From NCBI RefSeq assembly GCF_900099925.1, contig NZ_FNDE01000001.1, positions 1-64,000 on the forward strand: a DNA stretch of 64,000 nucleotides, read 5' to 3'. Both the position numbers and the translations under genes were made by a program. Shown here piece by piece: positions 27,135 through 32,033 of this stretch. Source of the DNA: Aneurinibacillus thermoaerophilus. GTDB taxonomy: Bacteria; Bacillota; Bacilli; Aneurinibacillales; Aneurinibacillaceae. The notes below the pieces were generated by a model, which was not told the origin of the DNA, did not search any database, and saw only the letters and a program-made list of their open reading frames with translations. Positions within the stretch are counted from its first letter, which is position 1. Each line of letters begins with the position of its first letter.

Positions 27135-29264
27135 ATGAGAGTACGGGATTACATGACGCCCAATCCGATTGTATTGCATAAGGAAGACCCGATTAGCCGG
27201 GCGGCGTCGCTACTTTTGGAAAACCGAATTGATGGCCTGCCAGTGGTGGATGAGGCGCATAAACTTATCGGCCTTGTAACAAAATCGCACGTATTCCGAG
27301 CGATGAAAAACCATTTGCCTGAGGAAACACCGGTAGGTATACTTATGCAGACTCGGCTCGTCACATTGTATGACGATCAGCAAATTTATGAGGACTGGGA
27401 TGAAGAATTGGATGCAGGTCGCCTGCCTGTTATTGACCGTTCTGGCACGTTGGTTGGCATTTTGACGCGTACCGACATTTTGCGCGCGTTCGAACACCAG
27501 ACGCGGAAAACCATATCACAATTAGATGCCATTTTACAATCTACGTATCATGGCATTGTAGCTGTTGATTTAACGGGGCATGTGCTATCCATTAACCAAG
27601 CGGCTGAAAGGCTCTTGGGCATTTCGCAAAAAAATATGATCCGCACATCCATTACAGAATTAGTATCTGATAAGACATTGTTGAACCTGCTTCTTTCGCT
27701 TGAAAAACAGCATATGGTGCGGCTTGACTACGGCGGACGCAAATTGTTGATTAACCATACTCCGATTGTGACTGATGAGGGAAAAAAAATCGGAATGGCA
27801 AGCGTCATGCAGGACATTACAGAGCTTGAAGTGATTTCCCAGGAATTGACTGCCATGCAAAAGTTAAACCGTGAACTAGATACAATTATCGAGTCGTCTC
27901 ATGATGGAATTGTCGTAACCGACCGGAACGGCGTCATTCGCCATTTTAATCAGGCCTTTAGTCGAATGACAGGCTTGCCGGCGTACGAAGCGATCGGTTG
28001 TAAGGAAGAAGAATTAGAGCGGCGAGGAATCATTTCCCAGGCGGTTAGCAGGCTGGTTATCGAAAAGAAAAAAAGGGTAAGCGTGATTCAGCATGCGGCG
28101 AACGGTAGCGTGCTTTTATCGACGGGAACGCCGATTTTAGACGATGAAACAGGGGAAATCCTACAGATTGTTATGAATTGTCGAGACTTAAGCCAGCTGA
28201 ACCGGGTAAAAGCGGAGTTGGAAGAAGCGAAGCAGCTTTCTGAACGATACCATTCCGAGCTGGAAGTATTGCGCGCGCAGCAAATGGAAATCGAAGGAAT
28301 TATTGCGGAAAGCGAAGAAATGCGTAACATTCTGCAGATGTGTATCCGCATCGCCCCGGTTGATACGTCCATTTTGATTCTCGGAGAATCAGGCGTTGGA
28401 AAGGGGGTGCTTGCCAAGCTGATTCATCAGCGGAGCGATCGGGGACGCGGCCCGTTCATTTCCATCAATTGTGGCGCGATTCCTAGCAATTTGTTGGAGT
28501 CGGAATTGTTCGGGTACGCATCAGGCGCTTTTACGGGGGCACAGCAGAAAGGTAAGCCCGGCCTCATTGAACTTGCAGATGGAGGCACACTATTTTTGGA
28601 CGAAATCGGAGACCTGCCACTTGATCTTCAAGTAAAATTGTTGACGGTGTTGCAGGAAAAACATGTTACCCGCATTGGGGATGTGAAGGAAAGGGCCGTC
28701 GATTTTCGGTTAATTGCCGCAACAAACGCTAATTTGCTGGAACGAGTACAGACAGGAACGTTTCGGGAAGATTTGTATTACCGGATTAATGTTGTTCCCA
28801 TCGAAGTGCCGCCGTTGCGTAAGCGACGGGAGGATTTGTTCCCGATGATCCGGTATTTCTTGAACAAGTTTAATGAAAAGCACCATACAAATAAGCGTAT
28901 TTCCTATGAATCGTTGGAAGTGATGCAAGCGTATTCGTGGCCGGGCAATGTGCGGGAATTAGAAAATATCATCGAGCGCCTGGTGGTAACGACTGTAGAC
29001 CCGATCATTGAAGTAAAGCATCTTCCGAAATTGATGCTTGGGGCGAATCTTGCCTCGGTCGCTTTTCCGATGGAAGAAAAGCGAGAGGTGGGCATGCATT
29101 CAAAGATGGTTCTTCATGCGGCGGATCAGGAGAGTGAAAAAGAGCGTTTGCTTGCATTGTATGAAAAATACCGCAGTACCCGAAAAGTAGCGAAAGTGCT
29201 TGGAATTCATCAATCGACAGTCGTTCGCAGGTTGAATAAGTACGGGGTTCAGCAGAAAAAGTGA
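27135..29264 (+). CDS. Sigma-54-dependent activator with two CBS and two PAS domains
   Basis: 709 residues. Two CBS motifs (about 1-60 and 62-122), PAS 1 (about 128-235), PAS 2 (about 246-352), a short coiled coil (355-385), the AAA+ domain with Walker A GESGVGKG at 417-424, the sigma-54 contact loop GAFTGA at 464-469 and Walker B TLFLDE at 485-490, and a TyrR-type helix-turn-helix at 676-704. The layout recalls PrdR-type activators of clostridia. CBS domains usually sense adenosyl compounds. Unlike most such activators it is not beside a catabolic operon; palindromes and a -24/-12 promoter directly follow its stop codon. GAAGGAGG precedes the ATG. Confidence 0.92.
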
Positions 29265-29323
29265 TGCATATGCATCGGTGATGCGAGGATTGATGCAAAA
29301 ATTGATGCATATGCATCAATTTT
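29263..29323. promoter_or_regulatory. Palindromic upstream activating sites for the sigma-54 activator
   Basis: Two palindromes share the core GATGCATATGCATC: 29263-29276, overlapping the activator's stop codon, and 29298-29323, where it grows into a perfect 26-base palindrome (AAAATTGATGCAT and its complement). Half-sites TGATGC also lie at 29279 and 29291. They sit about 50-110 bases upstream of the -24/-12 promoter, the normal place for enhancer sites. The longer palindrome could also act as an A/T-rich terminator. Confidence 0.65.
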
Positions 29324-29371: not shown

Positions 29372-29387
29372 TGGCATTGAATTTGCA
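29372..29387 (+). promoter_or_regulatory. Sigma-54 (-24/-12) promoter
   Basis: TGGCAT, five bases, TTGCA: the invariant GG and GC dinucleotides have the exact sigma-54 spacing. Predicted start near 29398. The gene for sigma-54 itself is not in this window. Confidence 0.75.
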
Positions 29388-29397
29388 TTATTATAAA

Positions 29398-29690
29398 AAG
29401 TATAGAGGATGAATAAATAAACTATCGCAAGTTTTACTGGAGAGAACTATATTATATACATTATTATTCAATCAAAAAAGTGTCGCGGTGGGAAACTTAT
29501 ACAATATAAACAATAAAACATAATTAAAGATAAAAAACGGAGAAAGTCACCCCGTCAAGAGAGTGGAGAGTAACCCAAGTGAACGGTATATATCTTGCGA
29601 TAGTTTATTTTCATCTAAAATCGCATAGGCTCCCCCTGCCTCTAAGCGAGCACTAGTGTAGGAGGGGAGTGACTTTCACCATTTTCAGCG
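29398..29690 (+). other. Structured segment driven by the sigma-54 promoter
   Basis: Non-coding-looking A/T-rich stretch. Helix 1: 29408-29431 pairs with 29594-29615, 22 pairs with only a two-base bulge. Helix 2: GAAAGTCACCCC (29542-29553) pairs with 29664-29677, 12 pairs with a two-base bulge. The arms interleave (1-2-1'-2'), so they form a pseudoknot or exclude each other. CTCCCC (29630) also competes for the second helix. Helix 1 begins ten bases after the predicted RNA start. It may be a small RNA, a leader, or a mobile-element remnant; no known family was recognised. Confidence 0.5.
29579..29656 (+). CDS. Possible 25-residue peptide inside the structured segment
   Basis: GTG start with GGAGAG eight bases upstream; product begins MNGIYLAIVYFHLKSHRL and is hydrophobic for ten residues then basic. 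The right arm of helix 1 covers codons 6-13, so folding would hide the early coding region, as in type I toxin messages. Very short, no recognised family, may be chance. Confidence 0.2.
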   Translation: MNGIYLAIVYFHLKSHRLPLPLSEH

Positions 29691-29714: not shown

Positions 29715-29756
29715 TTGAGGATACGTTTCTACGCAGTGTACAATAAAAGTATCCTC
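29715..29756 (+). promoter_or_regulatory. Sigma-A promoter of ylaL inside an inverted repeat
   Basis: TTGAGG, 18 bases, TACAAT. Perfect arms GAGGATAC (29718-29725) and GTATCCTC (29749-29756) bracket the core promoter, so the repeat may be an operator or a 5' hairpin. Confidence 0.6.
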
Positions 29757-29777
29757 ATGTCCAAGGAGGTTTTGCTT

Positions 29778-30233
29778 ATGGCAGAAGTTGTGGCGCAATC
29801 TTTAAGCCAGGAATTGCTTTCACTGCTTCAGGGTGAGCGGTTTGTCATGCTTTCCACGATCAGCAAACAATCCGGCGCTCCGTATGTAAGCGCAATTTCG
29901 TGGGTGTATGCGCCGGAAGTATCTACTATTTTGTTTGCTGTGAACAGCAAATCAGTGATCGTTGAAAACATTCAGCATAATCATCTGGTTACGCTGAGTG
30001 TGTTTGCTGAGGGTTCCGTATATTCGATTCATGGGCGCGCGCGGATTAAAGCGGATCGTATGGAAAATGTCCCGCTTAAGCTTACGATGGTGGAGATTAC
30101 CATTGAGGAAGTGCGTGATGTTATGTTTTATGGCTCGCGTATTGCCATTGAGCCGCGTTATGAGAAGACGTATGATACGCGCGCAGCGGAAAAATTGGAT
30201 AAACAGGTTATGCAAGCGCTTAAAAATGCCTAG
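29778..30233 (+). CDS. ylaL: Pyridoxamine 5'-phosphate oxidase-family protein (YlaL-like)
   Basis: 151 residues with the split-barrel flavin-binding fold: ERFVMLSTISKQSGAPYVSAISWVYAPE, then TILFAVNSKSVIVENIQHNHLVTLSVF, and RDVMFYGSRIAIEPRYEKTYDTRAAEKLDKQVM at the end. Agrees with my memory of B. subtilis YlaL. Probably binds FMN or F420-like cofactor; the substrate is unknown and pyridoxamine phosphate is unlikely. AAGGAGG eight bases upstream of the ATG; own sigma-A promoter. Its terminator is the landing site of the group II intron. Confidence 0.82.
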   Translation: MAEVVAQSLSQELLSLLQGERFVMLSTISKQSGAPYVSAISWVYAPEVSTILFAVNSKSVIVENIQHNHLVTLSVFAEGSVYSIHGRARIKADRMENVPLKLTMVEITIEEVRDVMFYGSRIAIEPRYEKTYDTRAAEKLDKQVMQALKNA

Positions 30234-30257: not shown

Positions 30258-32033
30258 GTGTGCCCGGCATGGGCGTCATCTCTAGGGTTCAAGTCCCGAG
30301 TGGCGAAGGCAGTAGTAGCCATTAGCTTGTGGCAAGGGTGTCGACCGTGAGGTCGAATCTGAAGGAAGCCGGCGGCAAACCTCCGGCCTGAGGAACACGA
30401 ATCTCATATAAGGCCAGCGTTCGTTGGATGAGCCTGCACAACAAGGCGAAGTCCATACTGCCGAAGGCGAGCGAAGGTAAATGAGGCAGGTAGATGGAGG
30501 GGAAGATGGCGCTCTTACCCGGGGAGATCTGTCTGATAGGCCGAGTATCCTCGGTAACCTCATTCGCGAGAATGAGTTGAACAGACAGAAGTCAGCAGAG
30601 GTCATAGTACATGCCATGTGACGACATGACATGGAAGGGCCGAACATTATGGAGAACGAAAGACCAGGCGTTCGAAGACACGCGATGAAGGCAGACAATC
30701 CGTATGGACTTATCCGAAGGAGGATGTGGTGAATTCCACGGGGGACTTCGGAAGGGCAGAGTGTGCCTTCGGCACAAATGGAACCTTTCGCTCACGCAAG
30801 GAGTGTACGTTCAATGATGGAACAATTGTTAGCACGGGACAATCTCTTACGTGCCTTGAAACAGGTAGAACGAAATAAAGGAAGTCATGGTGTGGACGGT
30901 ATGTCCGTAAAATCCCTACGTAGATATATCATGGACCACTGGCATGACATTCGTCGTTCCATTGAGGCGGGAACTTATGAACCGAGGCCTGTCCGTCGCG
31001 TCGAAATCCCGAAGCCGAACGGAGGAGTCCGACAGTTAGGTATCCCTACCGTGCTCGACCGTTTCATCCAACAGGTAATTGCACAGATACTTACCCCTGT
31101 GTTTGACCCTTATTTTTCCGAACATAGTTATGGATTCCGCCCCTCACGGCGCGGACATGACGCGGTACGAAAAGCAAAGCAATACATTCAGCAAGGCTAT
31201 CGATGGGTAGTTGACCTTGAACTTGAAAAGTTCTTTGACCGTGTCCATCATGACCGACTGATGGCAAGAATCGCGGAGAAAATAGAAGATAAGAAGCTTC
31301 TCCTGCTTATCCGTCGTTTCCTCCAATCTGGCATTATGGTGAACGGTGTAGTTCTTAATCCTACAGAGGGAACACCGCAAGGTGGCCCACTGAGTCCGCT
31401 TCTCTCCAATATTGTATTGGATGAATTGGATAAAGAACTTGAAAAGCGGGGACATAAATTTGTTCGCTACGCGGATGACTGTAATATCTACGTACGAACC
31501 CACAAAGCAGGTGAACGGGTGAAACAGTCTGTCACTGCCTTTATCAAAGGGAAGCTAAAATTGAAGGTCAATCAAGAAAAGAGTGCTGTTGACCGACCAT
31601 GGAAACGCAAGTTTCTCGGTTTCAGCTTTACTTCTCTCCTTGAACCAAAGATTCGCATTGCAAAACAGTCACTACAGCGGGTGAAGCAGAAAATCCGTCA
31701 GATTACATCTCGACGCATGGGTGCGCAGGCGACTGCGTATGTGTTTGTGGAAAGAGTGGAAACTTCCCCGAACAAAAGTGAAAAGGCTTCTCGCTTTAGG
31801 CGTGCCTAGAGGAAAAGCCTATGAGTGGGGAAATTCCCGTAAGGGATACTGGCGTATCGCCAAAAGCCCTGTTTTACATCGGACTCTTGATAAACGATTC
31901 TTCGAATCGTATCAACTTAAGAGTCTAAAAGGACGATATCACGCCTTGCGGCGTACATAATGAACCGCCGTATACCGAACGGTACGTACGGTGGTGTGAG
32001 AGGACGGGGGCTAGTCACCCCCTCCTACTCGAT
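30258..32033 (+). mobile_element. Class C (IIC) group II intron
   Basis: About 1.78 kb. The 5' end GTGTGCCCGGCATGGGCG is a bacterial group II consensus; domains I-IV occupy 30258-30813 with GTTCAAGTCCCGAGTGGCGAAGGCAG. Domain V is at 31963-31996 (ACCGCCGTA/TACGGTGGT arms), followed by a domain VI-like GGGGG/CCCCC hairpin and the 3' end CTCCTACTCGAT. It encodes a reverse transcriptase in the plus direction. Location immediately behind a terminator is diagnostic for class C. The exact 3' boundary is uncertain by a base or two, and its last base coincides with the ylaJ stop codon. Confidence 0.88.
30814..31960 (+). pseudogene. ltrA: Group II intron reverse transcriptase/maturase, deleted and frameshifted
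   Basis: Starts at ATG behind AAGGAG. The reverse transcriptase domain is complete: GVDGMSVKSL, PKPNGGVRQLGIPTV, FRPSRRGHDAV, LELEKFFDRVHHDRLM, GTPQGGPLSPLLSN and the catalytic FVRYADDCNIY. After ITSRRMG (about 31720) the frame runs out-of-register to 31809, while the family's end (RRRLRMCLWKEWK ... YEWGNSRKGYWRIAKSP) continues in another frame from 31721 to 31960. The roughly 35-40 residues that normally lie between these parts, in the maturase (X) domain, are missing. A deletion not divisible by three explains both. The protein is probably not functional for splicing. Confidence 0.88.

Follow-up and report, generated by a model that had tools for sequence, protein, structure and literature searches.

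A predicted sigma-54-dependent structured RNA encoded behind an orphan activator gene in Aneurinibacillus thermoaerophilus and its relatives

Regulatory RNAs driven by sigma-54 are known from proteobacteria. The literature searched, the coverage of which was partial, named no small RNA under sigma-54 control in Firmicutes, and in a start-site map of C. difficile the promoters of ncRNAs were assigned mainly to SigA, with a few given to SigD, SigB or sporulation factors (PMC7438776). The locus described here raises the question of what is encoded by the segment 29398-29690 of the window (the whole stretch of 64,000 nt that was analyzed), which lies between the gene of an orphan sigma-54 activator and a PNPOx/PPOX-family gene: a discrete RNA, the leader of the downstream gene, or the remnant of a mobile element. 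The features on which the argument is built are the following.

27135-29264, plus strand: orphan sigma-54 activator (enhancer-binding protein) gene, 709 aa (Pfam domains)
29263-29317, plus strand: activator-site-like array of six GATGC/GCATC half sites (half-site counts in 10 genomes)
29372-29386, plus strand: sigma-54 promoter, -24/-12, TGGCA-N6-TTGC = TGGCATTGAATTTGC (invariant in 10/10 genomes)
29407-29431, plus strand: P1, 5' arm of the closing helix (pairing, covariation, shuffle test)
29430-29448, plus strand: P2 hairpin, loop GGAGAG, stem AGUU/AACU (weak in the window copy)
29498-29540, plus strand: A-rich unpaired linker, about 67% A (A-rich in 10/10 members)
29552-29586, plus strand: P3, CCGU/ACGG closing the invariant purine loop (loop motif at 29561-29586)
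29594-29616, plus strand: P1, 3' arm, and approximate 3' end of the conserved RNA (pairing, covariation, conservation limit)
29611-29679, plus strand: lineage-specific hairpin insert, CTCCCCCTGCCT...AGGAGGGGAGTGACTTTCAC, resembling a TnpB/IS200-IS605 right end (missing in nine homologous loci)
29715-29744, plus strand: sigma-A-type promoter TTGAGG-18-TACAAT of the downstream gene (conserved in congeners)
29778-30233, plus strand: PNPOx/PPOX-family (YlaL-like) gene (Pfam PF01243)

The activator, its putative sites and the promoter

The order of activator gene, GATGC array, -24/-12 promoter, RNA and PPOX gene, within a yla-like neighborhood, was observed in 10/10 genomes. A sigma-54 promoter had been predicted in the sequence-only reading, and TGGCATTGAATTTGC indeed lies at that place and is conserved, since TGGCA-N6-TTGC is unchanged at the sigma-54 promoters of all RNA loci (10/10 genomes); rpoN is encoded in 15/15 genomes of the order. 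Given the position of this promoter, the transcript is predicted to start at about 29398, approximately 10 nt downstream of the perfect -24/-12 elements, and the RNA would have a length of about 215 nt in the window.

The activator consists of a CBS pair, two PAS domains, an AAA+ domain (Sigma54_activat, with GAFTGA present) and a HTH_50 domain, as defined by Pfam. Its best NCBIfam match is PrdR, with 493.8 bits, which is under the 795-bit equivalog cut-off, so that by this score the protein is not classed as a PrdR equivalog. The likeness to the PrdR-type activators of Clostridia lies in this best match, but the targets differ: PrdR recognizes TGT-N10-12-ACA sites and controls the prd genes (PMC6615313), while the repeats found here, upstream of an RNA, read GATGC. 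The window array, in which two GATGC-N4-GCATC dyads occur among the six GATGC/GCATC half sites, is separated from the promoter by a gap of 54 nt. In 10/10 genomes 6-7 half sites per 150 bp were found upstream of the promoter, where about 0.4-0.65 are expected. In several genomes the half sites are arranged as direct repeats every 10-11 bp, most clearly in G006 and G008. When strict sigma-54-type promoters were analyzed, only 1 of 29 in the window genome, and likewise of 29 in G006, had three or more of these sites within 300 bp, a target count that rests on the strict promoter consensus in these two genomes. Because the GATGC cluster is unique to its promoter, the RNA looks like the dedicated target of the activator, and is apparently the sole gene under its control; from the position and the exclusivity of the array we infer that the activator binds it. 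Two other strict sigma-54-type promoters of the window genome (G000:C33:112754 and G000:C40:78764, loci L216 and L224) have no open frame of more than 60 aa within 450 nt downstream, and the genome may thus encode additional sigma-54 RNAs.

The fold of the RNA and the insert at its 3' side

A first long-range helix had been noticed from the letters alone, and it was found where it had been placed. P1 comprises 22-23 pairs, i.e., 7 outer pairs (29407-29413/29610-29616) and 16 continuous inner pairs (29416-29431/29594-29609), and compensatory changes were observed in the nine other genomes; in G004 and G006 other letters make up the helix. Perfect Watson-Crick pairing in the segment 29398-29690 extends over at most 17 pairs, whereas the maximum among 300 dinucleotide shuffles was 11. 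Covariation was then scored for 22 pairs from P1, P2 and P3. The alignment, made from sequence alone, comprised the ten members, which belong to three genera of one family and include several close relatives. As a result, 94.5% of the cells were paired and 11 of the 22 pairs were altered on both sides; in shuffles the mean number of two-sided changes was 4.5 and 11 was reached in 0/500, and slid controls gave at most 4 two-sided pairs and at most 42% paired. P1 and P2 show compensatory changes beyond both the shuffled and the slid controls, which supports a structured RNA in this segment.

The P2 hairpin, with a NGGAGAG loop, was found in 8/10 members and covaries; it is strong in seven congeners and relatives, degenerate in the window copy and missing in two of the ten members. 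The short CYG/CGG stem P3, with 87% of cells paired, fails in two members and is less well supported because its changes are one-sided only. The loop that it closes carries the motif GAGUGGAG-N3-RACC-N7-9-CGG, which is invariant in 10/10 members (29561-29586 in the window). The linker that joins P2 to P3 has 52-70% A over the best 40 nt in the ten members. Among the homologous loci compared, sequence conservation ends just past the 3' arm of P1; no clear terminator was recognized downstream of P1, and the 3' end given for the RNA is an approximation. Two homologous RNAs fold at z values of -5.05 and -5.55 against shuffles, and the window copy at only -1.97, on account of its extra segments. 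Since P2 is weak there and extra segments are present, the RNA copy of the window genome may be partly decayed.

The GGAGAG loop could also be read as the Shine-Dalgarno sequence of an mRNA for a tiny peptide, MNYRK-x-x-AGEA[EG]. Four congeners carry a frame of 12-14 codons with an upstream GGAG, and a fifth has a longer frame, but the start codon is missing in 5/10 members, the window included, and the peptide similarity overlaps P1 and P2, the stems of which covary. Such a coding function is highly improbable.

The second helix of the sequence-only reading fared differently. Its letters are present (29542-29553/29666-29677, 11/12 Watson-Crick with one A-C mismatch, 17/20 when extended), but it is neither conserved nor beyond chance, its score of 9 being matched in 63/300 shuffles. 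As its 3' arm needs a lineage-specific insert, the helix lies outside the conserved RNA, and the pseudoknot or pair of exclusive folds that had been deduced from the interleaving of the two helices is not supported. This insert (approximately 29611-29679, hairpin CTCCCCCTGCCTCTAAGCG...AGGAGGGGAGTGACTTTCAC) is missing from 9/9 homologous loci. Its portion 29608-29648 recurs once in the window genome (G000:C35:39231) with 88% identity, and the TnpB right ends of the same genome (loci L265, L268 and L277) follow the plan seen in the insert, a C-run hairpin and then TTCAC. No significant alignment of the insert to a complete element was obtained, and there is no TnpB gene at the site; for want of such an alignment, its assignment as the relic of an IS200/IS605-type (TnpB) right end is made with moderate confidence.

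The whole segment had also been taken as possibly a mobile element in decay, with the repeats as its termini. The right-end-like hairpin at 29611-29679, in a genome rich in TnpB genes, speaks for this, and the claim is retained for this 3' part only. The hairpin is nevertheless missing from the nine other genomes, and the P1 arms sit at one syntenic place in ten genomes, in single copy and with covarying pairs, which refutes the mobile-element reading for the P1-bounded RNA; as an account of the entire segment it is hardly credible. In the window genome twenty TnpB zinc-ribbon matches were observed, several of them with almost identical right ends, which suggests that IS200/IS605 elements are expanding there or did so recently. 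A hairpin with the same C-run/AAGCG plan is also found at about 1690-1850 of locus L275 (G000:C16, minus strand), where it directly follows the terminator of a T-box-like leader and lies close to a TnpB fragment.

Linkage to the activator and to the downstream gene

BLAST of relatives revealed the locus in four further genomes of the genus. A covariance model built from the first five sequences and run on fifteen genomes of the order gave matches in 10/15, i.e., in all seven genomes of the genus and in three of the four other family members, with the RNA in single copy in each of the ten. The remaining covariance matches listed were weak opposite-strand echoes of the same loci and one match at G000:C14 of the genome that carries the window (E 0.011, 25 bits), judged to be due to chance; the L018 match from the first search, located away from the syntenic place, was likewise set aside as chance. 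The sequence-only reading had suggested a look for copies elsewhere in the genome, and had held that arms that do not covary, or many identical copies, would speak against an RNA. One RNA per genome was found, rather than many identical copies, and the arms covary, so that the outcome favors the RNA.

Across 399 genomes of the class (E ≤ 1e-175), activator orthologs were present in exactly the ten RNA-bearing genomes, and the family member G009 has neither the activator nor the RNA. When the same 399-genome sample was searched with the motif pattern, no further homolog with an upstream TGGCA-N6-TTGC was found, and nearly all of the other matches were located inside long open frames.

These data also bear on whether the segment is a cis-acting 5' leader of a longer, sigma-54-driven PPOX transcript rather than a free RNA. 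The PPOX gene has the same orientation, and its start codon, which could be located in nine genomes, lies 91-191 nt from the motif there; the absence of a clear terminator behind P1 would fit such a transcript. However, the spacer between RNA and PPOX gene is not conserved, and the gene has its own sigma-A-type promoter, TTGAGG-18-TACAAT, 3' of the RNA. Furthermore, the PPOX gene occurs in other Bacilli without activator and RNA (without the activator in three other genomes), so that the RNA belongs with the activator and not with the PPOX gene; the whole yla-like neighborhood is syntenic, and the adjacency is therefore inherited. A leader is thus unlikely, and on this genomic comparison the PPOX gene is an ancestral neighbor, not a partner, of the RNA.

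The PPOX promoter sits in a palindrome, TGAGGATA...TATCCTCA (29715-29757), that is kept in all seven congeners and is possibly the operator of a repressor. A group II intron (30341-31990) separates the PPOX gene from the YlaJ-like gene; its reverse transcriptase frame is broken near 31720-31810 (ORFs 30763-31809 and 31721-31960), so that the intron enzyme is probably frameshifted, and the homologous loci have no ORF matching the group II intron ORF at that place.

Possible function and comparison with known systems

That no riboswitch, 6S, tmRNA or ribozyme signature had been recognized from the letters agrees with the search of Rfam 15 (4227 models, including 6S, tmRNA and riboswitches), in which neither the segment nor its nine homologs gave a match at the gathering threshold. 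The weak Rfam matches, up to E 10, were all upstream in the GATGC array and none was in the segment. The earlier suggestion of a new small regulatory RNA is supported by the covariation, the single copy, the strict linkage to the activator and the lack of a Rfam match, and we consider it probable that the segment encodes a new family of sigma-54-dependent structured regulatory RNAs, with a predicted length of about 150-215 nt.

In the proposed mechanism, a signal would be sensed by the orphan activator through its CBS and PAS domains, and the activator would then bind the GATGC array behind its own gene and open the sigma-54 promoter. The RNA would fold with the long, covarying P1, P2 with its GGAGAG loop in most members, the A-rich linker and the small P3, which would display the purine loop GAGUGGAG...RACC, invariant in sequence. 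Most likely the RNA would be free and act in trans. An RNA-binding partner would dock at the invariant loop and the A-rich linker, and the signal of the activator would thereby be turned into a pulse of RNA that acts by titration or base pairing. No conserved complement of the antisense seed GAGTGGAG was found among the neighboring genes in the locus. If the RNA is expressed as predicted, the orphan activator would gain a clear function, an RNA family whose invariant loop can serve as bait would be added, and a like circuit layout would exist in an unrelated lineage.

Two known types of partner were considered. A sponge of CsrA, as in CsrB/RsmZ, would use the GGA loops as binding sites: like those RNAs, the RNA shows purine (GGA) loops on hairpins, here GGAGAG and GUGGAG, CsrA is encoded in the window genome, and GGAG occurs 22 times where 7.1 are expected. 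The RNA has, however, too few sites, with only 2-5 GGA each, and a single specific motif is conserved instead of repeated sites. A(N)GGA sites show no enrichment (21 observed, 25.8 expected from shuffles), which leaves CsrA titration unsupported and very unlikely. Titration of Hfq through the A-rich linker, which would make the RNA a mechanistic analog of CrcZ, has a precedent in Pseudomonas, where CrcZ titrates Hfq through its A-rich stretches (PMC4063720), and the A-rich unpaired linker is present in 10/10 members. Yet the purine loop, not the linker, is the most conserved part, and the A content of the linker falls to 52-60% in five members. Hfq is encoded in 15/15 genomes of the order, which allows this mechanism and does not support it; since it is encoded equally where the RNA is missing, its presence is uninformative. 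By analogy, an Hfq-titrating function is conceivable but quite unlikely.

Among the enterobacterial sigma-54 RNAs, GlmY/GlmZ act after transcription (PMC3162934); the RNA described here shares with this group the predicted sigma-54 dependence, but belongs to another phylum and has no sequence match to them. The closest layout is that of CbrB-CrcZ of the Pseudomonadaceae, in which the activator gene directly precedes its own sigma-54-dependent RNA, a separate unit that titrates Hfq, and in which synteny is likewise conserved within one bacterial family only (PMC8871633, PMC4063720). This layout, with a sigma-54 promoter directly 3' of the activator gene and candidate activator sites between them, was observed in 10/10 genomes. 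CbrB, however, is a response regulator with many targets, whereas the activator here has CBS and PAS domains and one recognizable target; CrcZ has 407 nt and six A-rich stretches, whereas the RNA here is shorter and tightly folded, with one A-rich linker and an invariant purine loop. With no sequence or covariance relation to CrcZ in Rfam at the gathering threshold, and with another size, fold and type of activator, the RNA is not a member of the CrcZ family. We tentatively suggest, as a possibility somewhat short of an even chance, that the locus is an independently arisen Gram-positive counterpart of CbrB-CrcZ, in which a CBS/PAS activator would have an RNA of new fold as its sole target and the RNA would sequester its partner via the GAGUGGAG...RACC loop.
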